DNA of 64,000 nt, from positions 4,741,501 to 4,805,500 of the forward strand of contig OY747705.1 in assembly GCA_963556495.2 (NCBI GenBank), given 5' to 3'. Both the position numbers and the translations under genes were made by a program. Positions 11,660-52,347 of the stretch are shown piece by piece (position 1 is the first letter of the stretch; each line of letters begins with the position of its first letter). Source of the DNA: Valencia hispanica (lineage: Eukaryota > Chordata > Actinopteri > Cyprinodontiformes > Valenciidae). The notes under the pieces were generated by a model, which saw only the letters and a program-made list of their open reading frames with translations, did no database searches and was not told the DNA's origin.

Positions 11660-13445
11660 ATTGAAAAATGTACTTGTAACTTTATAAAGACCAGATTTAG
11701 GATAGCAAAGTGCATGATGTTTTGCTGCCAACTTCAAGATAAAAAATATCTCTATCTCTGTTCAACTGCAAACTTCATGCAGTTCCTACACATTCTGAGA
11801 ATATCATGATTTACTGCTACCTACTGGTATGTTTGTTCCATCAAAATGTCAACCTTTGCGAGAATTTCCATGAGTTAGCGTGTTCCCTTGGCTTTTATCC
11901 TGCCCTGTACTCCGATCACCCAGCATGTGTAGTTGTTAAGTTTGTGATCTTAAGTCTTTCAGTTGTGAAACATACCTTTTGCTTAAACTAGTCTCCTAAA
12001 CTCCAAGTCTTTTCAAAAGCTGTGAAAACTGAAAGTCGTGTAATGTGTCTCCAGCTCAGCCTAAGGGACATGTCACTCAGCACTATTTCCAAGTACCTGC
12101 TGCAGGGTCCTTACTAATATGGTCCTTACTGCTTTTAAAATGAGGTTTTTGTCCTTATTCTGCACTCATAATTCAATCTTAGTCATTGTTTCTGCTTTTT
12201 TAATAGCTGGCCAAGTGATTATTGGAGTTGATACAGTTTCAGTCTCAACTCTTTTGCTTTGCTGTTTCTTTTGTCTCTTTACTTTGGCATACACATCAGC
12301 AAAGCCACCAAGATACAACTTTTTTTTTCCATCTTATTGACTTCTTTCTCTAGAGTTTAATTACTTGCAGTTCTCATAATGATAAACTGAACACAAAAGT
12401 CTTAATCTTGCTAAAAATCAAGAATACAAAAGAATGGTGGTGCAGTCTGCAAAAGGCCAATGGCCCTCTTTAGCATTCAAACTAGGCCTTAGTTGGATTC
12501 TAAACTATAGACTATTGTTCATTGTGAAACTGTAGTAAGAAGTTATTGCATATATGTGTTAAGCATTGAAAGTGGTAAAAATCCCAGAAAATATAAATAC
12601 ATTTGGTGTAAGCTTAGTTGATGACCAGTAACCCATTTTTGGTGGTGTAGTCTGAATTTTGACTGCATTTTTCCAACCAGAAAAACATTCAACATCATTG
12701 CTGATAACCTGGCGCAGGGGGTGCAAAGACCATAAGTATGTAGATGAGGTGACTGAGTACTGTTTCATTCAGAACCATTATCTGAGGCCACTCTTTAATT
12801 TGACAGGAACAGTTAACAAATAATAGGGGCTGATTGAGCATCATGCTGCACTTGAAGGCAGCTTTTGCAACCGGATTTAATAATCTTTAGTTGGTATTGC
12901 CAACTTCTCAGGACGGAAAGTAGCTAGTGAGTATTTCTTTGTATTTCTAGATTGTAAGATCAACAACTAGCAGGAAAGAAAACGTGGAATATTTCTGATC
13001 TTTGTCAGTCACAAAATAAAGTTCCGAAAAATAGCACATAGTAAGCAAATGTCATCTGGTTTCAGTGGTTTGCTAATGTTTTGCATATATTCAAAACGAC
13101 AGAACTCTGCACTATAAAAGGTAAAAACAACCTCTGCTTTAATACTTATACATATTGTACTGTATCTTATAATCATACCAGAGAGAACAAACCAGGTTAA
13201 TAAAACAAATACTTAACAAACTACTAAAAAAGAAACACCAATGTTAGTATCCAGGTTAGATTTTATTTCACTCTGAGAAATTTAATAACATTGCTCTTGA
13301 AGTCAATATTTTCATATCGTAACAATAGTTTTGATGCATCTGCAACACTTGTAACTGCACCTGTATATTTGCAGTAGTGAACCAGCAGACTATGGAAAGC
13401 CATTTGAGCATTTATTAGATATCTTTGATATCCAACTTTGAATCT
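11660..13445. other. AT-rich stretch without a recognised gene
   Basis: I find no coding domain or known repeat. The stretch ends where the ACTAGT ladder begins. Confidence 0.5.
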
Positions 13446-13449
13446 ATGT

Positions 13450-14090
13450 ACTAGTGAACACTTCATCCTCACTAGTAAGACAATTTGGCACACTAGTATA
13501 ACAACTAGGGTGCACTAGTATAAAAACTGTGTCTTACTTGTCACGTTTTTTCCACTACTGGTGGCACTTTTGGACTACTAGTATGCAATCAAACCTTACT
13601 AGTAAACGACTGTGCTGCACTAGTGACACAACTAGACCCAACTAGTAGGCATGTGTCACACACTATTAGCCTCCTGGACCCTACTAGTAGCGCATAAATG
13701 CCCACTAGTAGCACTAGTAAGGCATTTTTGACCTCACTAGGGCTACTAGTAAGAGACAAAATGGACACTAGTAGTACTAGTGGGGTGTGTTTTCCCTTAC
13801 TAGTACTACTAGTAACAGCGAGGATGCACACTTTCACACTAGTGAAAGCCAAAATGTCCACTAGTAGTTCTAGTGGACATTTTGGGTCTTACTAGTAGTA
13901 CTAGTAAGCTTAAACGAATCCCAATAGTACTACAAGTGGACATTTGTGATATCACTAGTACTACTTGTAAGGGCCAGAGCAACCACTAGTTGGGTTTTTG
14001 GGATCTTATGAGTACTACTAGTGAAGGCAAAAATGTCCACTAGTAGTACAAGTAAGGGTCCAACTGTGCACTAGTAGCACTACTCGAATT
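13450..14090. repeat. Left edge of the ACTAGT ladder (21-bp, then 31-bp spacing)
   Basis: The palindrome ACTAGT occurs at 13450, 13471, 13492, 13514, 13577, 13598, 13619, 13641, 13683, 13704, 13713, 13745, 13767, 13776, 13799, 13808, 13838, 13860, 13891 and 13900, among others. At the outer end the steps are 21-22 bp, with roughly 15-base spacers that differ from each other. Inward, the hexamer becomes paired at 9-bp steps (ACTAGTnnnACTAGT), and pairs repeat about every 31 bp with a partly shared spacer (ccaaaatgtcc). This looks like an older, diverged edge of the homogenised core at 14593-18035. No gene is present. Confidence 0.9.
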
Positions 14091-14094
14091 AATT

Positions 14095-14590
14095 AAACAA
14101 AATGCTAATGAGGAGGTGTGGACAGAATGCACTGAAACCTCTTGCTATTGGCTCTTCATAAAGAATTCCACCCAGCCAAAATTTAACCCTATAAAGCCTG
14201 ATAAACTTTCACTGTTGTAGTTGGCAATAATAATGATGATAATTAATAATATAATTAAAAATAACTATTATTTATATACTATATAGATGATGAATTAAGT
14301 CATACTAATATATATCTGAGAGGAAAATAATTAATGATTATGTTATAGGCATCTCTTTCTTATCATGAGGAAGTTTAAGCTGAGACAGCAAATAACAGCT
14401 AGTGCTGTTTGGGAAAGAGAAAATTTTAATTGTAACTGGTAGTCTTATGTTTTTACATAACCTACAGTGGTTGTTTGTCGAATGTATAATGAATTTGACA
14501 TTCAGATTCAAGTGTATGCCTATGCTTCATAATTATTCACTGTCCTGAACACTTAAAATACTCTTTTGGAAACATGATGTCATTAGATTT
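14095..14590. other. Non-repetitive AT-rich island inside the array
   Basis: About 490 bases without ACTAGT separate the left edge from the core. It is AT-rich, with no open frame of note and no recognised element. It could be an insertion, or original sequence around which the array expanded. Confidence 0.6.
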
Positions 14591-14734
14591 TGGTGCCCAC
14601 TAGTGGCCTCTAAATGCCCACTATTAGCACTTAACGGCAACTAGTAGCACTACTGGGCACTTAGCAGCCACTAGTAGCACTAGAGGCCACATAGCGGCCA
14701 CTAGTAGCACTAGTGGGCCTTTTGAGGCCACTAG

Positions 14735-16828
14735 TGGGCACTTAACGGCTATTAGTAGCACTGGTGGGCATTTTGAGGCCACTAGTAGAACTAGTGGGCA
14801 CTTAACGGTCAGTAGTACCACTAGCAGGAACATAGCGGCCACTAGTACCACTAGTGGGTACATAGTGGCCACTAGTACCACTAGTAGGTACATAGGGGCC
14901 ACTAGTAGCACTAGTGGCGCAAAGCTTAGAGGCCACAAGTAGCACTAGTGGGCATTTTGAGGCCACTGGTAAGACTAGTAGGCACTTAGTTGCCACTAGT
15001 AGCACTAGTGGGCACTAAGAGGCCACTAGTAGCACAAGTGGACATTTAGATGCCACCAGTAGCACTACTAGGCACTTAGCGGCCACTAGTAGCACTAAGC
15101 TTAGAAGCAATTATTAGGACTAGTGGGCACTTAACGGCAACTAGTACCGCTAGTAGGCACATAGCGGCCACTAGTAGCACTAGTGGGCACTTAGAGGCCA
15201 CTAGTAGCACTAGTGGACCTTTAGATGCCACCAGTAGCACTAGTGGACATTTAGATGCCACCAGTAGCACTAGTAGGCACTTAGCGGCCACTAGTAGCAC
15301 TAAGCTTAGAAGCCACTACTAGGACTAGTGGGCACTTAACAGCCACTAGTACCACTAGTAGGCACATAGCGGCCACTAGTAGCACTAGTGGCGCAAAGCT
15401 TAGAAGGCACTAGTAGCACTAGTGGGCATTTTGAGGCCACTAGTACCACTAGTGGGCACATAGCGGCCACTAGTAGCACTAGTGGGTACATAGCAGCCAC
15501 TAGTAGCACTAGTGGGCATTTTGAGGCCACTAGTGGGCACTTAACGGCCACTAGTACCACTAGTAGGCACATAGCGGCCACTAGTACCACTAGTAGCACT
15601 AAGCTTAGAAGCCACTAGTAGCAGTAGTGGGCACTTAATGCCCACTAGTACCACTAGTGGTCATTTTGAGGCCACTAGTAGAACTAATGGGCACTTAACG
15701 CCCACTAGTACCACTAGTAGGCACATAGCGGCCACTAGTAGCACTAGTACCACTGAGCTTAGAAGCCACTAGTAGCAGTAGTGGGCACTTGACGGCCACT
15801 AGTAGCACTAGTGGGCATTTTGAGGCCATTAGTCGAACTAGTGGGCACTTAACGGTCACTAGTACCACTAGCAGGCACATAGCGGTCACTAGTACCACTA
15901 GTGGGTACATAGTGGCCACTAGTACCACTAGTAGGCACATAGGGGCCACTAGTAGCACTAGTGGCACAAAGCTTAGAGGCCACAAGTAGCACTAGTGGGC
16001 ATTTTGAGGCCACTGGTAAGACTAGTAGGCACTTAGTTGCCACTAGTAGCACTAGTGGGCACTAAGAGGCCACTAGTAGCACAAGTGGACATTTAGATGC
16101 CACCAGTAGCACTACTAGGCACTTAGCGGCCACTAGTAGCACTAAGCTTAGAAGCAACTATTAGGACTAGTGGGCACTTAACGGCAACTAGTACCGCTGG
16201 TAGGCACATAGCGGCCACTAGTAGCACTAGTGGGCACTTAGAGGACACTAGTAGCACTAGTGGACATTTAGATGCCACCAGTAGCACTAGTGGACATTTA
16301 GATGCCACCAGTAGCACTAGTAGGCACTTAGCGGCCACTAGTAGCACTAAGCTTAGAAGCCACTATTAGGACTAGTGGGCACTTAACAGCCACTAGTACC
16401 ACTAGTAGGCACATAGCGGCCACTAGTAGCACTAGTGGCGCAAAGCTTAGAAGCCACTAGTAGCACTAGTGGGCATTTTGAGGCCACTAGTACCACTAGT
16501 GGGCACATAGCGGCCACTAGTAGCACTAGTGGGTACATAGCAGCCACTAGTAGCACTAGTGGGCATTTTGAGGCCACTAGTGGGCACTTAACGGCCACTA
16601 GTACCACTAGTAGGCGCATAGCGGCCACTAGTAGCACTAGTAGCACTAAGCTTAGAAGCCACTAGTAGCAGTAGTGGGCATTTTGAGGCCACTAGTAGCA
16701 CTAGTGGGCATTTTGAGGCCACTAGTAGAACTAGTGGGCACTTAACAGCCACTAGTACCACTAGCAGGCACATAGCGGCCACTAGTAGCACTAGTAGCAC
16801 TAAGCTTAGAAGCCACTAGTAGCACTAG
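14735..16828. repeat. 1047-bp higher-order repeat, two copies
   Basis: Segments offset by 1047 bp match across the whole unit (about 14735-15781 and 15782-16828), including the order of monomer variants and the positions of AAGCTT-bearing monomers. Differences are scattered single bases. This shows a segmental duplication of about 35 monomers, later than the original tandem growth. Confidence 0.85.
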
Positions 16829-17580
16829 TGGGCACTTAACGGCCACTTGTACCACTAGTGGGCACATAGCGGCCACTAGTAGCACTAGTAGCACCAGTGG
16901 CGAAAAGCTTAGAGGCCACTAGTAGCACTTATGGGCATTTCGAGGCCACTAGTAGCACTAGTGGGTATTTTGAGGCCACTAGTAGCACTAGTGGGCATTT
17001 TGAGGCCACTAGTAGAACTAGTGGCGCAAAGCTTAGAGGCCACTAGTAGCACTTGTGGGCATTTTGAGGCCACTAGTAGAACTAGTGGGCACTTAACGGC
17101 CATTAGTACCACTTGTAGGCTCATAGCGGCCACTAGTAGCACTAGTAGCACTAAGCTTAGAATCCACTAGTACCACTAGCAGGCACATAGCGGCCACTAG
17201 TAGCACTAGTAGCACTAAGCTTAGAAGCCACTAGTAGCACTAGTGGGCACTTAACGGCCACTTGTACCACTAGTGGGCACATAGCGGCCACTAGTAGCAC
17301 TAGTAGCACCAGTGGCGAAAAGCTTAGAGGCCACTAGTAGCACTTATGGGCATTTCGAGGCCACTAGTAGCACTAGTGGGTATTTTGAGGCTACTAGTAG
17401 CACTAGTGGGCATTTTGAGGCCACTAGTAGAACTAGTGGCGCAAAGCTTAGAGGCCACTAGTAGCACTTGTGGGCATTTTGAGGCCACTAGTAGAACTAG
17501 TGGGCACTTAACGGCCATTAGTACCACTTGTAGGCTCATAGCGGCCACTAGTAGCACTAGTAGCACTAAGCTTAGAATCC
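16751..17580. repeat. 415-bp higher-order repeat, two copies
   Basis: The unit at about 16751-17165 is repeated at 17166-17580 almost without change, including a cttatgggcatttcgagg variant and a gtggcgaaaagcttag monomer. The near identity implies a very recent duplication. Confidence 0.85.
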
Positions 17581-17590
17581 ACTAGTAGCA

Positions 17591-17800
17591 CTAGTAGGCA
17601 CATAGCGGCCACTAATAGCACTAGTAGCACTAGTGGCGCAAAGCTTAGAGGCCACAAGTAGCACTAGTGGGCATTTAGAGGCCACTAGTGGTACTAGTGA
17701 TACTAGTGGCCTCTAAATGCCCACTAGTGCTACTTGTGGCCTCTAAGCTTTGCGCCACTAGTGCTACTAGTGCTATTAGTGGCCGCTATGTGCCAACTAG
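17591..17800. repeat. Long inverted repeat reversing monomer orientation
   Basis: The arms 17591-17689 and 17702-17800 are reverse complements with about one mismatch, around a 12-base centre (ggtactagtgat). Left of it the monomers read GGCCACTAGTAGC. Right of it they read as the reverse complement. The similarity continues outward with more mismatches. It could form a hairpin of about 100 bp and marks a fold-back duplication. Confidence 0.85.
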
Positions 17801-18035
17801 TGGTACTAGTGGCTGTTAAGTGCCCACTAATTGCCTCAAAATGCCCACTAGTGCTACTAGTGGCTGCTATGTGGCCACTAGTGCTACTAGTGGCCGCTAT
17901 GTGCCCACTAGTGGTACTAGTGGCCATTAAGTGCCCACTAGTGCTACTAGGGGCTTCTAAGTTTAGTGTTACTAGTGCTACTAGTGGCCGCTATGTGCCT
18001 GCTAGTGGTACTAGTGGCCGTTAAGTGCCCACCAG

Positions 18036-20918
18036 TTCTACTTTAGTCAGCATGTCATGCAGCCAACTCACAACAGAGGACACACCCTGGACTTGGTCAT
18101 CACGCATGGCCTGTCCACCCGTGTGTCCTCTGTTGTTGACTTGGCTGTCTCTGACCATTACTGCGTGTTTTTTAACATCACCAGTTTTATCCAGCAGGAG
18201 ACCTCTGTGAGAACTGTCAGGAAGCGCCATCTAACCCCTGAAGTGGCTGCAGGTTTTCTAGAAGTTTTCCAAAAGTTTCCTCCTACTCTCTTACCTGCCC
18301 CCTGTGATTTTATCGTCAGTGATTTTAACAGAAGACTTCAGTCCGCTCTTGACCTGCTGGCTCCACTTAGAGTGAAACGCTCACATTCAAAACTTGCAGC
18401 GCCATGGAGAAATAACAATCTTAAAAAACTAAAGAGGGACTGCAGGGCGGCAGAGAGAAAATGGAGAAAAAATAAAACCACGATAAACCATCAATTATAC
18501 ACAGAACTTCTCAAATCCTATAATAATGCTGTAAGAAATTCAAGAAATGCTTACTTTTCAAAAATCATATCAGACAATAAAAAAAATCCTAAAATCCTTT
18601 TTTCCACCATTTATAAACTTTTTAACAGAGCTACTAATGCATTTCAGAAAACCCCCTCAAACACTCTTTGTAAGGAGTTCGCAGACCACTTCAGAGGGAA
18701 GGTAGACACCATCAGATGTAATATTTTATCTTCTCAGTGTAACATGGTTTTAGACAAATCTGAATGTGTGTCTCTACCAGAGGAAACGCTGGACAGTTTT
18801 GTCCTGGTAGAAGCTGGGACTCTTGATAAAGTTTTCTCCTCAGTGAGGCCCACCACATGTGTTTTGGACCCGATTCCCACTTCATTTTTTAAGCCATTTT
18901 ATGAATCTTTTAGGGATGAGATTTTAACCTTGATGAACTGCTCCCTTCAGACGGGGGTCTTTCCTGCCGCCTTTAAAGGGGCGGTAGTGAGGCCCCTGCT
19001 GAAGAAGAGCAATTTAGATTTTAATGATTTTAATAATTTTAGACCGGTATCTAACTTACCATTTTTAAGCAAGGTTTTAGAAAAGCTAGTTTTAATTCAA
19101 CTTAATGATTTTATTAATGAGCACAATGTCCTGGAGAAATTTCAGTCTGGTTTTAGGGTGAACCACAGCACAGAGAGGGCCCTTCTGAAGATTTTAAATG
19201 ATTTTAGAATAAATTATGACGCTCAGAAGGTGACAGTGTTGGTTCTACTGGATCTAAGCGCTGCCTTCAATACAGTGGATCACACTATTCTTTTAACCCG
19301 TTTAAAACAGATCGGCCTCTCTGGTGCTGTTCACAAATGGTTCACATCCTATCTCACAGACAGGACTTTTATGGTAAGTTTAGATACCTGCTCTTCTAGG
19401 GTCCACAGGATTACATGTGGTGTGCCCCAGGGTTCAATTTTAGGCCCAGTGCTTTTTAACCTTTATATGCTCCCTCTTGGCAGCGTCATCAGGAGACATG
19501 GAGTTAACTTTCACAGTTATGCTGATGATACACAGTTATACATCTCCATGTCTCCCGATGACACACAGCCAATGGATGCACTTTTTAACTGCATTTTAGA
19601 CATTAAATCCTGGATGGCAGAAAACTTTCTCCAGCTCAACCAGGACAAAACTGAAGTTTTAGTCATCGGTCCTGAGGCTCAGAGAGAGAAACTTTTACCA
19701 AAACTACAATCACTGTCTTTTAATCTCTCTTTACAAGTGAAGAACCTGGGCGTGATTTTTGACTCTGAGCTGACTTTTATTCCTCACATAAAAAATATCA
19801 CTAAAATAGGTTTTTATCAACTAAAGAACATCGCCAGAGTCCGCCCCATTCTCTCTCGGGCCAATACGGAGACACTGATGCATGCTTTTATCTCCAGTAG
19901 AATTGATTACTGTAATGCCCTGCTTTCTGGTCTTCCCAAAAAGAGTATATCAGGTTTACAACTACTACAAAATTCAGCAGCACGTGTCCTGACGAAGACC
20001 AGGAGGCGGGAGCACATTACACCGGTCTTAAAATCATTGCATTGGCTCCCCGTACATTTCAGGATCGACTTTAAGGTTCTTTTAATGGTTTTTAAGTGTC
20101 TTAATGGTCTTGGGCCTTCTTATCTCTCTGAACTGCTTTTACCATATAAACCTTCGCGGTCTCTGCGCTCCTCTGGCAGCCGTCTCCTTGTCACCCCAAA
20201 AGTCAGGACACACAAGCATGGCGAGGCGTCTTTCCAGTTTTATGGCCCTCACCTCTGGAACAGGCTGCCAGAGAACCTCAGGGCTGCAGAGAACATTCAT
20301 GTTTTTAAGAGCAGGCTCAAGACTCACCTTTTTAGCTTAGCTTTTAACTGATTATTATTTATCACTGTTTGTTTAATTGCTTTGGATGTTTTATATGATT
20401 ATATTTGTATCAGTTTTACTTTTCAATCTTAGCACATTAATTTACCGTTTCTTTTTATACTTTAATTTATCTTAATCCCCGTTCCAGTGTTTCCTCTGTG
20501 GGAGCCCTATGCCCCGGGAGCGGTGGTCGGTTGTAGCTGCCTGGGTGCTCTCCGGGTGGAGCTTGGGTGGAGGTGGGGGTCTTGGCCTTGCCTCCACTGG
20601 GTGCCCTGTGTCAGTGCCTCGGCTGCTGCTGTTAATCTACTGCTGCCGGGGCAGATGGCTCCTCTGATGGCGTTTCCTTGCATGGTTCATCTGCACTCGG
20701 CCCAATGTCCTTTTTTTACCTTTTCTTTTAACTGTGTGTGTGCATGGGAGATGGGTTGGGGGGAGGGGGGTATAACTGTGACCATGCTTTTAAATCTGTG
20801 GGGGAGGGAAGGGAAGGTGGTTTTATGTGGGGTCATTTTAATCTGTAAAGCACTTTGTGATGCAACTTCTTGTATGAAAAGCGCTTCATAAATAAAGTTT
20901 GATTTGATTTGATTTGAT
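18036..20918 (+). mobile_element. 5'-truncated L2-clade LINE inserted in the ACTAGT array
   Basis: Array monomers run up to about 18035, and ACTAGT monomers resume at 20919 immediately after a TTTGATTTGATTTGAT tail. The element starts inside the endonuclease domain, so ORF1 and most of the endonuclease are missing. It carries a long open frame (18057-20351), then a 3' UTR with a G-rich middle and gcttcataaataaagtttga before the tail. The insertion postdates the array. Confidence 0.9.
18057..20351 (+). CDS. L2-clade ORF2, reverse transcriptase (764 codons, N-terminally truncated)
   Basis: The enzyme copies LINE RNA at a nicked target site (target-primed reverse transcription). The N-terminus keeps the end of an APE-type endonuclease: THNRGHTLDLVI, then LAVSDHYCVFF with the usual SDH. 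The reverse transcriptase follows, with NFRPVSNLPFLSKVLEKLV, LLDLSAAFNTVDH (first catalytic Asp), GVPQGSILGPVLFNLYM and YADDTQLYIS (catalytic Asp pair). The C-terminal part has SLHWLPVHFRIDFK and WNRLPENLRAAE. The frame has no internal stop, unlike the other LINE copies here, so the insertion is fairly young. The ATG at 18057 is an internal methionine of a truncated copy. No promoter is evident, so function is unlikely. Confidence 0.88.
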   Translation: MQPTHNRGHTLDLVITHGLSTRVSSVVDLAVSDHYCVFFNITSFIQQETSVRTVRKRHLTPEVAAGFLEVFQKFPPTLLPAPCDFIVSDFNRRLQSALDLLAPLRVKRSHSKLAAPWRNNNLKKLKRDCRAAERKWRKNKTTINHQLYTELLKSYNNAVRNSRNAYFSKIISDNKKNPKILFSTIYKLFNRATNAFQKTPSNTLCKEFADHFRGKVDTIRCNILSSQCNMVLDKSECVSLPEETLDSFVLVEAGTLDKVFSSVRPTTCVLDPIPTSFFKPFYESFRDEILTLMNCSLQTGVFPAAFKGAVVRPLLKKSNLDFNDFNNFRPVSNLPFLSKVLEKLVLIQLNDFINEHNVLEKFQSGFRVNHSTERALLKILNDFRINYDAQKVTVLVLLDLSAAFNTVDHTILLTRLKQIGLSGAVHKWFTSYLTDRTFMVSLDTCSSRVHRITCGVPQGSILGPVLFNLYMLPLGSVIRRHGVNFHSYADDTQLYISMSPDDTQPMDALFNCILDIKSWMAENFLQLNQDKTEVLVIGPEAQREKLLPKLQSLSFNLSLQVKNLGVIFDSELTFIPHIKNITKIGFYQLKNIARVRPILSRANTETLMHAFISSRIDYCNALLSGLPKKSISGLQLLQNSAARVLTKTRRREHITPVLKSLHWLPVHFRIDFKVLLMVFKCLNGLGPSYLSELLLPYKPSRSLRSSGSRLLVTPKVRTHKHGEASFQFYGPHLWNRLPENLRAAENIHVFKSRLKTHLFSLAFN

Positions 20919-21656
20919 ACTAGTGGCCTCAAAATGCCCACTAGTCCTACTAGTGACACTAGTGGCTGCATGTTGCAACTTACATGTTAACTAGTAAAGG
21001 CTAGAATGCCCACTACTAGCACTAGTGGACATTAGTAACACACAATATTATGGTTTTACTAGTACCACTAGTGAAAGCCAAAAAGTCTACTAGTAGCACT
21101 AGTGAGACTCTTTTGATCTCACTATTACCACTAGAAGAGGGCAACATGTCTACTAGTACTACTAGTAAGTGCCTAAATGTGTACCAGTAAGTGGCAAAAT
21201 ATCCACTAGTAGCACAAGTAGGGGACTTTTACACCTTACTAGTAGTACTAGTGAGATCAAAAATGTTCACTAGTGTTACTAGTGGCACGGTTTTGTTTTT
21301 TTACTAGTGTGACTAGTAGAAGAAAGTTTGTCTCACTCGTGAGCTTCTGAACGTCACATGTAAATGCTTTGGCTGTACTTGTGCTCATCTGCGCATCACT
21401 AGTTCGCAACTAGCACACCACTAGTATGCAATTACACACTACTAGTGCGTGACTACACACTACTAGTGCAACATTTCTGTAACATGTGAGACATTTTTGC
21501 ACACTGGTAGGACAACTTTGGCATACTAGTAGGACAGCTACATCTTACTAGTGAGGCAAAACTGTGCACTAGTTGACAATTCTGTACCACTAGTGCTACT
21601 AGTGACATCATAAATTTCTACTAGTTAACATCTAGTGCTGCATTAGTAGTACTAGT
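20919..21656. repeat. Right edge of the ACTAGT ladder
   Basis: It mirrors the left edge. Near the L2 the hexamer is paired or tripled at 9-bp steps (20940, 20949, 20958; 21058, 21067; 21089, 21098; 21152, 21161; 21238, 21247; 21269, 21278; 21303, 21312). Toward the outside it becomes single at 21-22 bp steps (21420, 21441, 21462; 21525, 21547, 21568, 21589). Spacers near the outside are mostly unrelated. Degenerate forms (ACTAGA, ACTGGT, ACCAGT) sit in register where the exact hexamer is missing. Confidence 0.9.
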
Positions 21657-21812
21657 AGCATACAGATGTCAACTTGTGGACGCAGCTGTGTGGACGCGCC
21701 GATACCAGTTTCTTGGATGCGGGCGACTTGCTGCGGGGCAGCTTGACGCATGTAATCTAGCTGCCCTGCTGCCTGCACGCGCTGACTGGTGTGAACGCCC
21801 CTTAAGGCATTC

Positions 21813-21945: not shown

Positions 21946-22500
21946 CACCATGCAAGACTCCATTGCTGAACAAAAAGTATGTTGAGGCTCGGTTAAAGAT
22001 TGCGAAACAGCATTTGGAGAAGCCTCTGGATTACTGGGAGACCATAGTGTGGTCAGATGGTCAGATGTCATTCTACACACCTTCACCCCAAGAACACCAT
22101 ACCAACAGTTAAGTTTTGGGGTGGAAGCATCATAGTGTGGGGCTGCTTTTCAGCAAAGGGTACTGGGAGACTTAATATTATTAAAGGGAGGATTAATGGA
22201 GAAATGTTCCGGGACATTCTGGATAAAAATCTGCTGCCATCTACCAGAAAGGTGAGGATGAAAAGAGGGTGCACATTTCAGCAAGACAATGATCCCAAAC
22301 ACAAGGCCAAGGAAACAATGAATTGGTTTCAAAGAAAGAAAATCAAGTTGCTTGAATGGCCCAGTCAAACACCTGACGTAAATCTAATGGAAAATCTATG
22401 GAGCGAGCTGAGGATCAAAGTTCATAAAAGAGGCCCAAGGAACCTTGAAGATTTAAAGACCGTTTGTGTGGAAGAATGGGCCAGAATCACTCCTGAGTAA
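21946..22500 (+). pseudogene. Tc1-type DD34E transposase, C-terminal half
   Basis: The transposase cuts and pastes DNA at TA sites. The first catalytic Asp is present (TIVWSDG), but the following segment is shortened and a frameshift separates it from the next part ([19 protein letters not shown]). The second Asp ([11 protein letters not shown]) and the Glu (LMENLWSEL) are 34 residues apart, the DD34E spacing. The frame then runs to the stop at 22498-22500. The N-terminal paired-like domain is missing. Confidence 0.8.
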
Positions 22501-26455: not shown

Positions 26456-27115
26456 TTAATCTTCTTCTTCATTTCTGTCTTCATCTTCAAGCCTCTGATT
26501 AAGAAGAGAGTATTGGACCATTGTGTTAGTTATCATCTTATTCATCATTTGTTTTATACATGGGAGAACACAACTAACAATAATGCAGAAAAGTATCAAA
26601 ATTACAATGAATGGCATAGCTATTTTTAAAAGAACCTGATACCACCTGCCAGTTGTCAACCAGCCCATGAGATCCCATTGTCCATTACTGCTTTCTTGTG
26701 ATTTTAAAAAGTCAGTTAATCCCTGCACCCGGTCATGAATGAGAGTCCAATTATCATGTGTACTAGGAATGTAAGTACAACAGTGTTCACCAATTACAGT
26801 ACCAAGTCCACCTTCAGAAGCAAAAAGAGTGTCCAGAGCTACCCGATGTTGCATCAGCATGGTCTTCATCGCCAGTTTTTCAGGATCGTTGGCCAGCAGG
26901 TTGGACATTTCAGCAAGGATGTCTGTGATGTTTTCCAAAGTCCACCAAACCTCGTTCATCCGTTTTGTCAGGCTTGCAACTCCAACAGGTGGGAACATGG
27001 TGTGGAAGATTCCTTTTGCATCACTGTAGAGAGGTTTTCGTCCACCATTGTCAGAGAATGGGTTGAACACTTGTGGAGGGTTGAATTCCTGTTTATTCAG
27101 CTCTGTAGGTTTAGA
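26456..27115 (-). pseudogene. env: ERV env, transmembrane subunit part
   Basis: The transmembrane subunit would fuse viral and cell membranes. Visible are an ectodomain with a heptad-like stretch (LENITDILAEMSNLLAND), a gamma-type segment before a Cys pair (GEHCCTYIP), a Trp-containing membrane-proximal part, a hydrophobic anchor (KIAMPFIVILILFCIIVSCV) and a short acidic tail. The residue six positions before the Cys pair, where gamma-type Envs have the first Cys of CX6CC, is Gly here. No clear furin site is visible. This part is in a different frame from the surface subunit. The break lies near 27110-27120. Confidence 0.85.
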
Positions 27116-27761
27116 AGGTGCCACACCAATCCTTAGGTAGGTAGAGGTAGAAAGTGTGACCACACTTCCAGATGTATCCGTCAGGCGTTCCCATGCCAAA
27201 TTGGGAGGGAACCTCTAGGAGATGGGTTCCTCTTTTGACAGTGGTTTTGAAACCACTTATCTTGTCTTGAAGTCGAGTGGTGTTGAGGGTTATGTATCTT
27301 GGCACAGATGTGTTTCCAATCGTCATCCAGTGGTTAATACGCATCATTTTCGTCTGGGTCGCTGACAAGGGTAGCGTGTCCTCACAGATGGAATTTTCTA
27401 AAAATGCATGTTTGTTGTTACAAGGGACTGAAAAACAGAAAGTGTCTTTTCCAGTAAGGCGTAGTAAGTTGATTCCTTTGGCAACTGAAGCATTCGTTTT
27501 TTTTGGAAAAGTCACCATGCTGGGACCATGTCCTGTTGTTCTCAGCAGTGCAGCAGTGAGGTAAGGTGGAACAGTCTGTTCCAACAGTTGTTGGAACAGA
27601 CTGTTTGGTACTATTTGGTACCAGGTGTTCTTGAACGCATGGTGGGTTAGAATTTTAGCTCTTCTTTCCTTTGATGTCTGGGCGTCATCAGGTGTGAGGA
27701 AAAAGCAGTGGAATAGAGGCAGGCAAACTGCCAGACAGGAGTGGAGCCAAACTAGTTTCAT
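27111..27761 (-). pseudogene. env: ERV env, surface subunit part
   Basis: The surface subunit would bind a receptor. The first true ATG is at 27761-27759, followed by a hydrophobic signal-peptide-like stretch (MKLVWLHSCLAVCLPLFHCF). About 210 residues follow, with several N-glycosylation sequons (NAS, NTS, NTT) and paired Cys. The end has the WKCGHTFYLYLP pattern typical of the C-terminal surface domain of gamma-type Envs. It is short for a gammaretroviral surface subunit and lacks an obvious CWLC. A stop follows because of the frameshift into the transmembrane part, so no full Env is made. Confidence 0.8.
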
Positions 27762-27909
27762 GTTGGCTAGAGGCAAATAACAGAACTAGCCCTCCAAAAC
27801 AGAGGTTTGACCTCTAAGGGGACAGGGATGCTGTTCTGCTGGGTTTGAGACCAGAGGCCCTATTGGTCACTCTGTCCTTTGTAGCCCAGACTTCCGCACT
27901 GTCCCGTGT

Positions 27910-29235
27910 CTAGTCCCCTAATTGCCTTTGCAATTTGCAGTGTGAGATGTGTATCCACGAGGGTCTCTCAGCGATTTTCACAGCCGTGGGCGTGGTCAAC
28001 AGGACTTCAAAAGGTCCTTCCCAGCGGGGACTCATCCAATTCTTCCTTTTAATCACCTTGATGAAAACCCAGTCTCCAGGTTTGATTGGCTTTTCAGGAT
28101 CCTGCAAAACAGAAGCAGAGATAGGCAGATTGTGTGCGTTTTGCACTTCTTTGGCTAGGATAATTTTCCTCATGTGATCAGCTAATGTGAGTTCTTCGTC
28201 TGCTTTTTGCAAAGCAGGCGCAACTAGAGGTAACCTGTAAGGTCTGCCATAAATGATTTCAAAAGGTGTTAAACCTTGGTTTGTTGGCGTGATTCTCATG
28301 TAAAGTTTTACTAGGTCCAAACACTCAGGCCATGGTCTTCTAGTCTCTGCAATGCATTTCCTGAGTCTGCTTTTGATGGTCCCATTATGTCTTTCTACTA
28401 AACCTGCACTTTGGGGGTGATAGGCACAATGATTTTTTAGTTGGATGTCTAAATGTTTTGCCATATTTTGAATAACCTCATTCACAAAATGTGGTCCATT
28501 ATCTGAATATATTACTTGTGGAATACCATGGTTTGCAATCATAGTTTTACATAGTGCTTTTGCCACTGTTAGAGCATCATTCTTTGCAGTGGGAATTATT
28601 TCCGGCCATTTGGAGAAAGCATCAATTATTACTAAGCAATATTTGTATGAGCCGCTCTGTGTCAGTTCAATGAAATCCATGTGGATTGTGTGGAATGGGT
28701 AGGCTGGTTGAGGAAATTGGCCTCGCTTGGGTCTCATATTCCCTTGTGGGTTGTGTTTGATACATGTTAGGCATGTCTTGCAAAAATGTTTTAAGTATGT
28801 TTCAAGGTTGTATGTTGTAAAGTGTTGCTGTATTATTGATACCATCCCCCCTGTGGAGACATGGCAAGGCCCATGGCTCTCAAGCGCAGCAGCTTTAAAC
28901 AGTGATTTAGGTAGGATGGGTTTATTACGAACTTCATAAAGTCTATTTTCGTTTAGAATGGCACCTTTTGTTTTCCATAATTGTTTTTCAGAAGAGGGAG
29001 CGGTTGTTTGCATGTCTTTCAAAACAGTCTGATCTATAAGTTCCTTATCTGTGGTCTGTGTAATTCCTAACTCTGCTTCCGCAGAGAGCGGATATTGTCT
29101 CACTCTGGGTGTAAAATGTGATTTAGCAGTTATTTGAACGGGAGCAATGGATGAGAGTAGGCCCACATCAGTGGGGCTTTTAGACCATAATGTGTCAGGG
29201 ACTTCTTTGAGTTGCTTTTCTTCCTCTTCAGTCAA
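27910..29235 (-). pseudogene. pol: ERV pol remnant: RT start fused to integrase
   Basis: Integrase inserts viral DNA into the host genome. The first ~55 residues are the start of a reverse transcriptase ([11 protein letters not shown], then [15 protein letters not shown]). The frame then passes directly into the linker and the integrase zinc domain (H-x3-H in [11 protein letters not shown]-x2-C in CKTCLTC). All RT catalytic motifs and RNase H are absent. The core has [15 protein letters not shown] and LVERHNG, with 35 residues between the second Asp and the Glu. The C-terminus has PGDWVFIKV and WEGPFEVLL, a GPY/F-type module. Integrase looks complete. The deletion kept the frame. Confidence 0.9.
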
Positions 29236-29353
29236 TAAAATGGTTTCTGCTTCTGGTCATTCTAGTGGTGCAACTTGAGTGGTGCAGTGGAGTGGCATGA
29301 TAAGGGGCAGTCTATATAAACCTGTGGATTCACTGAATTGCCAATGATCTTCT

Positions 29354-30202
29354 TTATTTTTCTTGCAAAGTTTTAAAATCTGTGGCGTTATTTTCTTTTC
29401 GCACCATATATCCCAAATCTTTCCAACGTGATGTACTGCTTTTTGTCAGGGATATATGCGGATCTGTAGGCAAATTGAAGAATGGTTTAAGGCTGGTAGA
29501 CAGTGTTACTGAGGCAGCTGAAACAGATTTTCCATCAGTAATGATGTGTGAGGTGAACACTACAGCAGGTGAGAGTTGCATAAAATAGTCTTGGAACTTG
29601 GGATCAGGTTCAGGCCTCAGAGCCATAGTCACATGTAACTGTGATGTAGGCATGATTTGTTTGTCAGGTTCAGGAACTACCTGCAAAGCTGTGTCCATCA
29701 TTGTTGTTGTATCTTTAAGGTTTTCTTTAGGTTCAACTCGTAAAAAATAGTACAGACCGAGTCCCTGTGGTCTATGAGTTGTATTTAGGTAAATGTCATC
29801 CTTTCCTGTTCTCACAGCTCTCATGCCGTCTCCCACTGGGATAATTGAGATTTTTAGGGCTGACATTAAGTCTCTGCCCAACAAATTGAGTGGACATTGT
29901 GGTGAAATGACTATTGAGTTTTTAGAACTAAACCTAGTTTTTGGATCTGTTATTAACACTGGTTTAGATAAAAATGAGTGCGTAGTAGCACCATCTGCTG
30001 ATTTGACCAAAATGCTTTCTTTAGATTCTGGCAGATTAACGCCAGAGGAGATCACTGTTCTGCAAGCTCCAGTGTCACAAAGGAGCTCTACCATTTGTTC
30101 ATTAATTTTAAGTGTTATGTAAGGCTTCTCTTTCAGAACATTAAGTAATTCCCAGGCGCCACAGCAATCCACCACCTCATTAGAGGCGGTAAAAGTATCT
30201 AG
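29354..30202 (-). CDS. pro: ERV protease
   Basis: This is an aspartic retropepsin that would process Gag-Pol. The active-site motif LLCDTGACRTVI is near the N-terminus, and LLGRDLMSAL is the conserved helix about 70 residues later. It lies in the same frame as gag, directly after a UGA stop (30205-30203). Its first nine codons after that stop have no ATG, so it would be made only by readthrough of gag. After the protease the frame continues for about 170 residues and ends at TAA (29356-29354). The pol remnant is in another frame, and a further TGA lies in that frame before 29235. Confidence 0.85.
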   Translation of the reverse strand, partial: LDTFTASNEVVDCCGAWELLNVLKEKPYITLKINEQMVELLCDTGACRTVISSGVNLPESKESILVKSADGATTHSFLSKPVLITDPKTRFSSKNSIVISPQCPLNLLGRDLMSALKISIIPVGDGMRAVRTGKDDIYLNTTHRPQGLGLYYFLRVEPKENLKDTTTMMDTALQVVPEPDKQIMPTSQLHVTMALRPEPDPKFQDYFMQLSPAVVFTSHIITDGKSVSAASVTLSTSLKPFFNLPTDPHISLTKSSTSRWKDLGYMVRKENNATDFKTLQEK

Positions 30203-30205
30203 TCA
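30199..30205 (-). promoter_or_regulatory. Gag-Pro stop in a readthrough context (UGA CUAG)
   Basis: On the minus strand gag ends CAA TGA, followed by CTAG, and the frame stays open into the protease. UGA followed by CUAG is an established context for efficient stop readthrough in animal viruses and some vertebrate genes. In-frame gag-pol separated by one stop is the gammaretrovirus layout. The RNA structure that would help readthrough was not assessed. Confidence 0.75.
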
Positions 30206-31775
30206 TTGCTGTGTGAACCGCGAGTGGTCTGGGGCAGTTGGACCCTGTGTATGGATCTGACCTCGCCCTCTGCCCCCTTCTTGGCCTCTGCCTCTGCTAC
30301 ATTCATTTGAAATGTGGCCTACTTTCCCGCAGATCCAACACGTGGGGGCAGTGTGGCCACCTTGATGTCTCCATGAACCCTGGGGTGTGTAATGATGTGT
30401 ATTCCTTCGTGGTCTAAACCCCCTTCCTTTGTTGTGGTTGTCACTTTGATAATAAACTTCCCCCTCATCGTCTTCAAGCTGGGTGTGAAATACCTGTGTG
30501 TCGGAGTCTGGAGGTTTTGGTTTCTTCCCCTTTCTTTTCATGACACCTTCTGCAAAACTTGCATTGGCCATAAGGGTAGTAAGGTCGCAAGTTTCCCATG
30601 TCAGAAGGTGATTTTTAATCCAATTAGTGATAGTGGGGTGGAAACTATGTAGCAGACCATTACACAAATGCCGCATATATGGGGTCTCATCACCACCCTC
30701 TTTAGTTAGGCCACTGTGGATATCATGTTCTTTTTGGTATCTGTATTTAAAATCATCTACAGTTTCCCCAGGCTTCTGTTTTATGGAGGCCATATGGCCA
30801 TAATCTGGTTTCTTTTTAAACTGTGCACGAACTTTAACCGCTACTGCATCAAATTGTTGCTTTAGTGCTCCCTGGAAATCATTCTGAAATTGTAACACAA
30901 CTCCGGCAGCATCTCTTCCTGTGTAATTTCCTCCTACATGGTGCCAGTCTTTTCCCAACGATGTAGCCATAGCCTGTCCTAATTCATGACCGTTTAACCG
31001 GTAGGATTTGACCACATCAACCATATCCTCTGTCAATTTTTCTGGATCCTCCTTATGGCTGGTGATTTGTTCTACAACCTCTTTAACGTCTTTAAGTGAC
31101 CATGGTCTAAAAACATATCTCGGAGTGCCATCGGCAGATGGTTCTTGAATCATAGGGTTAACATCTATTGAGTCCTCTGGTTCACTCTCATAAGACTTAT
31201 CCTCAGATTGTTTTGGACCTGACTTCTTTGTAATTCTAAGTCTTTGTTTTGTTGTGGTACCATCTGTTTTTTCTTCAATTGCAAATTGATCTCTTGGAAC
31301 AGGAGGATATAGACCTTCCCCTAAAGCCCCCGGCTGGTCTGATGGGGGTGTTGGTGGAGGTGCATAAGGTACTCCTCCAACAGCCCCAAGGGGGTCTGTC
31401 TGGGCTGTAGGTAGAGGTGCATAAGGAGGAAGACACAGTGTGAGTTTGTCACCGAGCTTTTTCATAAGAAAAGCCTCATCTTTAGAGCCTTTGTTTTTCT
31501 TCCTGTTTTGTATATTTTGCTTCCTTTTTTCTGTTTCATCAGCCCACACGTGCTATTTTTAACTGTGTCTGTTTAAGTTTTTTCTTTTGACCTTTAGCGA
31601 TAAGTGTTTTTGCTTCGAGAACACATACCAGTTCTTTCCATTGATTTCCTTTAAGTTTCCCGTCTACTTTATACTTTTTGCACCATTTTGTCAGAAACTG
31701 AAGATTTTCGGAGTCCTTTTTATGCATATACTTTGAATCTCCCTCTAATTTGTCGGTGGAAACATCGTTTCCCAT
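30203..31775 (-). pseudogene. gag: ERV gag with one frameshift
   Basis: Gag builds the particle. The ATG at 31775-31773 has a good Kozak context (aagATGG) and gives MGNDVS, a likely N-myristoylation signal, followed by a basic matrix-like region. The frame ends at 31539. The rest is in another frame, open from 31549, so there is a one-base-type frameshift at about 31540-31555. Downstream are a Pro-rich segment (LPPYAPLPTAQTD), a capsid region (YVFRPWSLKDV and later QKPGETVDDFKYRYQKEHD) and a nucleocapsid with one zinc knuckle (CWICGKVGHISNEC, C-x2-C-x4-H-x4-C) in a Gly/Arg-rich tail. The stop is UGA. Confidence 0.88.
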
Positions 31776-50758: not shown

Positions 50759-52347
50759 CAGGTCCTTCTCAAAAAATTAGCATATTGTGATAAAGTTCAT
50801 TCTTTTCCATAATGTAATGATAAAAATTAAACTTTCATATATTTTAGATTCATTGCACACCAACTGAAATATTTCAGGTCTTTTATTGTTTTAAAACTGA
50901 TGATTTTGGCATACAGCTCATGAAAACCCAAAATTCCTATCTCAAAAAATTAGCATATTTCATCCGACCAATAAAAAAAAAAGTGTTTTTAATACAAAAA
51001 AAGTCAACCGTCAAATAATTATGTTCAGTTATGCACGCAATACTTGGTCGGGAATCCTTTTGCAGAAATGGCTGCTTCAATGCGGCGTTGCATGGAGGCA
51101 ATCAGCCTGTGGCACTGCTGAGGTGTTATGGAGGCCCAGGATGCTTCGATAGCGGCCTTAAGCTCATCCAGAGTGTTGGGTCTTGCGTCTCTCAACTTCC
51201 TCTTCACAATATCCCACATATTCTCTATGGAGTTCAGGTCAGGAGAGTTGACAGGCCAATTGAGCACAGTAATACCATGGTCAGTAAACCATTTACCAGT
51301 GGTTTTGGCACTGTGAGCAGGTGCCAGGTCGTGCTGAAAAATGAAATATTCATCTCCATAAAGCTTTTCAGCAGATGGAAGCATGAAGTGCTCCAAAATC
51401 TCCTGATAGCTAGCTGCATTGACCCTGCCCTTGATAAAACACAGTGGACCAACACCAGTAGCTGACATGGCACCCCAGACCATCACTGACTGTGGGTACT
51501 TGACACTGGACTTCAGGCATTTTAGCATTTCCTTCTCCCGAGTCTTCCTCCAGACTCTGGCACCTTGATTTCCGAATGACATGCAAGTACTTTGGACCAC
51601 TGAGCAACAGTCCAGTGCTGCTTCTCTGTAGCCCAGGTCAGGGGCTTCTGCCGCCGTTTCTGGTACAAAAGTGGCTTGACCTGGGGAATGCGGCACCTGT
51701 AGCCCATTTCCTGCACACGCCTGTGCACGGTGGCTCTGGATGTTTCTACTCCAGACTCAGTCCACTGCTTCCGCAGGTCCCCCCAGATCTGGAATCGGTC
51801 CTTCTGCACAATCTTCCTCAGGGTCCGGTCACCTCTTCTCGTTGTGCAGCGTTTTCTGCCACACTTTTTCCTTCTCACAGACTTCCCACTGAGGTGCCTT
51901 GATACAGCACTCTGGGAACAGCCTATTCGTTCAGAAATTTCTTTCTGTGTCTTACCCTCTTGCTTGAGGGTGTCAATGATGGCCTTCTGGGCAGCAGTCA
52001 GGTCGGCAGTCTTACCCTGATTGCGGTTTTGAGTCATGAACCAGGCTGGGAGTTTTTAAAAGCCTCAGGAATCTTTTGCAGGTGTTTAGAGTTAATTAGT
52101 TGATTCAGAGGATTAGGTTAATAGCTCGTTTAGAGAACCTTTTCATGATATGCTAATTTTTTGAGATAGGAATTTTGGGTTTTCATGAGCTGTATGCCAA
52201 AATCATCAGTTTTAAAACAATAAAAGACCTGAAATATTTCAGTTTGTGTGCAATGAATCTAAAATATATGAAAGTTAAATTTTTAGCATTACATTATTGA
52301 AAAGAATGAACTTTATCACAATATGCTAATTTTTTTAGAAGGACCTG
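50759..52347 (-). mobile_element. Tc1/mariner element, nearly complete
   Basis: TA flanks (50757-50758 and 52348-52349) and inverted repeats of more than 200 bp starting caggtccttctcaaaaaatt on each end. An inner repeat of aaaaaattagcatatt occurs within each terminal repeat, as in IR/DR-type Tc1 elements with two transposase sites per end. The length of 1589 bp is normal for the family. It is inserted in the first bases of a SINE. Confidence 0.9.
51025..52037 (-). pseudogene. Tc1 DD34E transposase, core deletion and frameshift
   Basis: The ATG at 52037 starts MTQNRNQGKTADLTAAQKAI, an HTH region with CSQSAVSRHLSGKS, then a basic GRKRCTTRRGDRTL linker and a second DNA-binding half ending KPLLYQKRRQKPLTWA. 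At about 51590 a small deletion and frameshift remove the first catalytic Asp region (after WSKVL). The second frame continues with GARVWRKTREKEMLKCLKSS, MVWGAMSATGVGPL, FQHDLAPAHSA (Asp) and NSIENMW (Glu), 34 residues apart. It ends TKYCVHN. Otherwise it is well preserved. Confidence 0.88.

Follow-up and report, generated by a model that had tools for sequence, protein, structure and literature searches.

The window analysed here, a 64,000-nucleotide stretch of the Valencia hispanica genome (contig OY747705.1, positions 4,741,501 to 4,805,500), contains an 8-kb array built on the palindrome ACTAGT. Positions 13440-21670 hold 222 exact copies of this hexamer, and the remaining 55.7 kb holds 8. 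We judge it quite likely, from sequence comparisons, that the array belongs to a foldback transposon of the IS3EU kind, non-autonomous and moved by cut and paste, of which it is a dead copy truncated on the right, and in which the ACTAGT hexamers are putative transposase-docking sites. An earlier note on this DNA had described the dominance of the hexamer, its graded spacing (single sites at 21-22 bp, pairs 9 bp apart, a 30-bp unit at the centre), an island of 490 bp and an inserted long interspersed nuclear element (LINE). The site count and step pattern confirm the grading, and both the island and the LINE are present; the island belongs to the regular make-up of the family, and the LINE is an insertion.

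The copy extends over 13391-21678 on the forward strand, as determined from a start shared with other copies and from a block comparison with 13 other loci. It begins before the first ACTAGT of the array, with a left terminal inverted repeat (TIR; 13391-13449, forward) that starts TATGGAAAGCC and recurs, inverted, at the far side of other copies; the first hexamer begins 59 bp from the element's end. A ladder of single sites (13450-13703, forward), with steps of 21 or 22 bp and their multiples and a 10.5-bp phase in the family consensus, passes into a zone of site pairs 9 bp apart that repeat about every 31 bp (13704-14092, forward), where the steps alternate between 9 and 22-23 bp. The left island, islL (14097-14595, forward), is about 0.5 kb long, non-repetitive and without a long open reading frame (ORF), and recurs together with the left end in nine further loci, for example L005 (93.2% identity) and L036-L044. 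The central array, delimited by site spacing and column conservation, has a left arm (14600-17700, forward) with a 30-bp unit of alternating 9- and 21-bp steps, and an inverted right arm (17701-18042, reverse); positions 17366-18042 form an imperfect palindrome, with 80.7% identity between this stretch and its reverse complement. The right arm is interrupted by the LINE (18046-20920, forward), which is foreign to the element and whose ORF at 18057-20351 matches RVT_1 (E = 2.2e-34). Past it lie a final array remnant (20921-20937, reverse), recognised from its sequence and from array matches at 20918-20955 in L005, and the block Rout (20938-21678, forward), in which paired sites grade into a single-site ladder, with 93.9% identity to L005 7371-8117. 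Rout stops at a break, and the parts named islR and Rend are missing.

Beyond the centre of the array, like zones recur in reverse order, as the mirror symmetry proposed earlier would have it. The right edge, however, is a break and not an outer edge of the element: fuller copies extend further, and consequently the mirror symmetry is partly that of an internal palindrome. For the same reason a candidate target duplication at the array's right edge was dropped. A candidate left terminus near 13358 was also rejected, because the alignment behind it had paired the left block Lout with Rout and not with the true right end.

We searched the host genome (1.29 Gb in 29 contigs) with window 13300-14100 as the query. 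The best 40 of 461 candidates were scored, comprising the window itself and 39 others, and all 39 share a start at query position 84-93, corresponding to window 13383-13392. The genome contains 183 exact occurrences of a 33-bp end pattern (93 forward and 90 reverse), while the same pattern read backwards, as a control, does not occur. Among the first 100 ends in the matches listed, 68 can be joined into 34 convergent pairs, with 685 to 8019 bp (median 5091) between the two ends of a pair. For 28 copies with both ends, the flanks duplicate exactly 6 bp, perfectly in 16 cases and with a mean identity of 0.80; a control with mixed pairs gave 0 of 756 perfect duplications and a mean identity of 0.28. 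Perfect duplications of 4, 5 or 7 to 12 bp were found in none of the 28 copies, and of 3 bp in one. The count omits L041, whose second end has diverged, L047, which has two right ends, and 10 of the 34 listed pairs, whose sequences were not fetched. The common boundaries and target duplications that the earlier note had suggested looking for are thus found at other loci, and its option of a satellite that spreads by the hexamer is not supported in view of them.

The flanks of L021, L074/L075 and L076/L077 carry short end remnants (TATGGA.. and ..CTTTCCATA) directly beside full copies. These are perhaps excision footprints, or perhaps the result of repeated insertion at element ends.

Twenty-seven young copies, chosen as the best matches to the window query, differ by a mean of 1.56 positions per 713 bp (0.22%), and their spread is therefore recent; going by this similarity, the family is likely active at present. 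The window query itself is 41 substitutions from their consensus.

Comparison of copies reveals the complete order of parts. L005 and L039 carry Lout (706 bp), islL (about 0.5 kb), the array forward, the array inverted, islR (475 bp), Rout (747 bp) and Rend (1051 bp), and the other copies lack inner blocks. Copies that keep the right part continue past Rout for as much as 1051 bp, the Rend block. In the window copy, Lout and islL lead into an array with a long left and a short right arm, followed by the LINE and Rout. The central array varies in length from about 0.1 kb (L044) through 0.3 kb (L036 and L037) and 2.9 kb (L005) to 3.4 kb (window). L045 and L046, only 690 and 685 bp long, have no central array and consist of the end ladders. 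Deletion after insertion would give the same form, so these two copies are no proof of a minimal mobile unit. Long inverted arms that consist of graded tandem repeats, variable in number, give the family the anatomy of a foldback element. Lout and Rend, compared as the consensus left end and the right end of L005, differ at only 7 sites in their outer 300 columns. In L005 (2784-3489 and 8468-9168) these near-identical columns give way in one sharp step to 400 old, diverged ones, as if exchange between the ends had stopped there.

The islands of L005 (3504-3997 and 6886-7360) and of the window (14097-14595) contain inward-pointing, promoter-like words, identified by eye: TATAAA, ATTGG, and ATGCAAAT or ATGCTAAT, the window's islL having TATAAA, ATTGG and ATGCTAAT. 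They are possibly leftovers of a transposase gene. A coding remnant in the islands was rejected, as the longest overlapping stop-to-stop frames reach 66-67 amino acids, and besides array translations no long ORF was found in L042-L044 or in the L005 islands. A pairing of islL and islR as inverted copies was likewise unconvincing (213 matches in 561 columns).

The boundaries allow the superfamily to be narrowed. IS3EU families are described with TA..TA termini and usually 6-bp duplications (PMC10045372), and those of rust fungi with 6-bp duplications, TIRs over 30 bp and the termini TAYGG..CCRTA (PMC12730594). In the copies whose ends were compared, the ACTAGT family terminates in TATGG..CCATA, which fits this pattern, except that L018/L041 has CATGG at one end. 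The duplication length of IS3EU/GingerRoot is found, as is a TIR over 30 bp, given the 7 differences in 300 columns between the two ends. Unlike IS3EU/GingerRoot as described there, the family lacks a transposase gene in the copies checked and has kilobase-long foldback arms, and its phased palindrome ladder goes unmentioned in the passages on IS3EU in those two papers (PMC10045372, PMC12730594).

Elements of the CACTA/EnSpm type end in CACTA. The earlier note's suggestion of a large non-autonomous DNA transposon with subterminal repeats was thus right as to kind and wrong as to CACTA, which is ruled out by the TATGG termini and by the 3-bp duplication of CACTA/EnSpm (PMC12730594), perfect in a single copy. 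Neither the 9-bp duplication of Mutator-type foldback elements (FB and Tm1) nor the roughly 8-bp duplication of the P superfamily, to which Galileo belongs, agrees with the flanks: none of the 28 copies is perfect at 7, 8 or 9 bp. Among the open-access titles and abstract openings listed, none describes an IS3EU foldback element or such a palindrome ladder, and a text search of an open-access library for four array words of 15 to 19 letters gave no paper.

We now turn to the arrangement of the hexamers. In the 713-bp consensus of the left end, the 29 exact sites follow a 10.5-bp period with R = 0.88, and the right end gives R = 0.87 for 31 sites. Randomly shifting every step by up to 1 bp reaches the observed values in only 2 and 1 of 1000 trials, respectively. 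The outer ladder keeps to one helix face over some 700 bp, across both single (21-22) and paired (9+22) spacing. A chance 21-bp unit could explain the first zone, but it does not explain why the 31-32-bp steps share the same period. The central array of L005, in comparison, has R = 0.08 at 10.5 bp and 0.32 at best.

Next, we compared change in hexamers to change in the spacers between them. The 27 young copies show no difference, with 10 changes in 4698 hexamer positions (0.21%) and 32 in 14553 spacer positions (0.22%; P = 1.0). In three copies of other subfamilies, the hexamers have changed at 7 of 522 positions (1.3%) versus 70 of 1616 in spacers (4.3%; P = 0.001), where L007 and L008, both 24 substitutions from the consensus, may share changes. 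Between the two ends, over columns 300-700, the contrast is 11 of 144 (7.6%) against 84 of 250 (33.6%), and neutral simulation with the same picking rule is as low in 0.08% of runs (P = 0.0008). For Rout and its mirror in L005 the figures are 12 of 191 and 68 of 437 (simulation P = 0.012). Four separate tests on the right ends of L005, L039, L040 and L037 amount to a single comparison, since these ends nearly copy one another. The window copy differs from the family without distinction in Rout (8 of 204 versus 24 of 533) and with P = 0.09 in Lout (5 of 167 versus 36 of 535). In central arrays, minority bases make up 2-5% of motif columns and 15-21% of spacer columns. On our reading, resident copies decay freely, and the lineage that keeps jumping holds its hexamers. 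This is the signature of sites that transposition requires, and it counts against both mutation bias and maintenance of each array by the host. The earlier idea that the sites are kept by selection is supported between subfamilies and between the two ends, and not among the young residents; the comparison of motif and spacer divergence, on which that note had staked the idea, comes out alike after insertion and unlike in the mobile lineage.

The same genome contains potential relatives that encode an integrase core. PF24764 (rva_4) has at least 159 matches, from the best 150 of 477 candidates scored, and the copies that we compared came from three lineages: three from the first, two from the second and one from the third. 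The first-lineage element has a 309-amino-acid ORF that matches rva_4 (E = 1.2e-25), and its TIRs differ from those of the ACTAGT family. The C9 element is 8462 bp long, with TACGGAGCCCC termini (TACGG ends) and the perfect duplication GATTTG/GATTTG; the C12 copy seems to have lost 5 bp of its left terminus, its flanks matching at 5 of 6 positions by our reading, and the sequence fetched for C11 stops short of the left end. The left end of C9 bears palindromic TTCGTGGCCACGAA-like sites (up to 5 mismatches) at 39, 82, 103, 124, 145, 167, 188, 209 and 230 bp, and two weaker ones at 260 and 372 bp. The right end of C12 has them at 39, 82, 103, 123, 144, 165, 187 and 208 bp, with a weak one at 17. 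At up to 3 mismatches, TTCGTGGCCACGAA occurs 10 times in the 8462 bp of C9, always close to the ends. The C9 element bears the published IS3EU marks together with a 21-bp ladder, and therefore an IS3EU-type element carries a ladder of another palindrome, the link between rva_4 and IS3EU resting on the C9 termini and duplication. Clean support from the rva_4 lineages is one of three. The second lineage (L088/L089) was not used as support because its visible homology boundary is not TAYGG-like.

A long array of the 14-bp palindrome ACTAAATATTTAGT lies beside rva_4 in L088 (1-199) and L089 (4673-5001) and in the neighbouring L093 and L095. A ACTAAATATTTAGT array on C15 has 76 near-sites in about 1.7 kb, and by eye the C17 copy is graded from diverged to homogenised.

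Together, these data suggest how the ladders may function. They are probably docking sites for the enzyme that moves the element. A transposase or a partner protein would bind ACTAGT with two-fold symmetry; sites on one helix face, two or three turns apart, would allow it to load side by side in rows at both ends; and the loaded rows would bring the two ends into pairing. The central array would derive from the end sites by slippage, unequal exchange and inversion, its length free to vary. Variable in its length and lacking the phase of the ends, this array is best regarded as a by-product. An inner site reduces activity in piggyBat (PMC11707139), and hence a long array could hold the element back as well as assist it. 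A broader proposal is possible but doubtful: that IS3EU transposases in general load, helically phased, on family-specific rows of palindromes two turns apart at both ends, that the multi-kilobase row of this element draws transposase away from an autonomous relative, and that the runaway growth of the centre is a by-product of this contest, with the ladders of different palindromes as its record.

Several results weigh against our reading of the array as an IS3EU-kind element with docking sites. Twelve of the 28 copies lack a perfect 6-bp duplication, five of them matching at 4 or 5 of 6 positions and seven at 3 or fewer; by eye, the flank of three of these seven bears a remnant of another copy's end. 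The ends and rva_4 matches listed yielded no TATGGAAAGCC-ended element that encodes a transposase, and inspection by eye placed every listed rva_4 match more than 10 kb from the listed ends. At 10.5 bp, Rout and its mirror reach R values of only 0.24 and 0.37, their best period being 10.6 bp (0.75 and 0.85). The second end of L038 gives 24 of 205 hexamer changes versus 95 of 483 in spacers (simulation P = 0.24), over a stretch that overran the homology by about 85 bp. The ladder on the rva_4 element is built of a palindrome other than ACTAGT, and the right end of C9 has only three TTCGTGGCCACGAA-like sites (39, 61 and 82 bp). L090, the rva_4 copy without a located end, has no array in the 4.5 kb fetched, and the array of L088/L089 has a period of 19.45 bp and visible ends that are not of the TAYGG type.

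Other explanations account for parts of these data. An ordinary satellite would grow in place from the middle, decay at its edges and have no mobility of its own; the homogenised 30-bp array and its differing length between copies accord with it, but boundaries common to many loci, 6-bp duplications and convergent paired ends make it extremely improbable. The duplications refute it for the structure as a whole, and it still describes the length change of the central part. The growth from the middle that had been inferred earlier survives to that extent: it fits a homogenised central array of variable length without the 10.5-bp phase, and not the entire structure, which is a mobile element. The ladder may instead have some other role for host or element, binding nucleosomes or regulators or forming a promoter unit with the islands, whose promoter-like words (seen by eye) would suit it, just as a 10.5-bp phase suits any row of bound proteins. 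This we regard as unlikely, since young resident copies are without constraint and the ladder of a different palindrome on the rva_4 element points to a shared role in transposition.

That the element is a foldback transposon of another superfamily, P-type like Galileo or Mutator-type like the Drosophila FB, with its IS3EU marks coincidental, is decidedly unlikely. Its anatomy does resemble FB, Tetris, Tm1 and Galileo, and no transposase was found for the ACTAGT family among the copies checked; yet the duplication is exactly 6 bp, against 9 reported for FB and Tm1 and about 8 for P, with no perfect case at 7 to 12 bp, and the termini fit TAYGG..CCRTA. A further possibility is that mutation bias or gene conversion among sites, and not selection during transposition, has preserved the hexamer. 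The near-identity of the first 300 columns does indicate that exchange between the ends seems to happen. Conversion tracts, however, would carry spacers too, while spacers differ at 33.6% and hexamers at 7.6%, and mutational coldness is contradicted by the unprotected hexamers of the young copies (0.21% versus 0.22%); we consider this very unlikely.

The foldback IS3EU element proposed here has counterparts in several described systems. Like Drosophila FB, it has mirrored ends followed by blocks of repeats in variable number (27-31 bp in FB), but FB has 9-bp duplications, end sequences of 467-479 bp and other repeats (PMC7642927). Tetris of Drosophila virilis is a non-autonomous foldback element whose tandem TIR repeats are able to expand into arrays, with a 220-bp unit and duplications of 8-10 bp in contrast to those found here (PMC4079207). 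Tm1 of root-knot nematodes shares composite TIRs with short tandem motifs in variable number; it differs in its 13-15-bp unit, 9-bp duplications and Phantom/Mutator-type transposase (PMC3169594). In the long TIRs of Galileo (PMC3688188, PMC3573991), repeats hold demonstrated THAP-domain sites that start about 70 bp from the end, as compared to 59 bp for ACTAGT; Galileo has few sites and belongs to the P superfamily, in which duplications are about 8 bp. In piggyBac and piggyBat, subterminal palindromes are bound by paired transposase domains and an extra inner site alters activity, in another superfamily with few sites per end (PMC11707139).

Foldback arms and subterminal repeats are no new discovery, but the role of their many sites is, by these accounts, mostly untested (PMC3688188, PMC11707139). 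The genome studied here combines copies that are nearly identical, subfamilies that have diverged, derivatives with deletions and a relative whose palindrome is a different one, a set that makes site, spacing and helical phase each testable against transposition. Residents decay equally in hexamer and spacer while the mobile line conserves the hexamer, and this combination tells selection through transposition apart from mutation bias and host upkeep. The family also shows a route from a transposon end to a satellite-like array.

Elsewhere, Tc1-type transposase pieces (DDE_3; HTH_Tnp_Tc3_2) lie at window 22057-22500, a short way to the right of the array, and at 51522-52037. Pieces of a retroviral-type element at window 26456-31549 (reverse) match rve, MLVIN_C and zf-CCHC. 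At G000:C1:10124818-10132521 the genome has a further tandem array that contains ACTAGT; its unit is 32 bp and its sequence seems unrelated.

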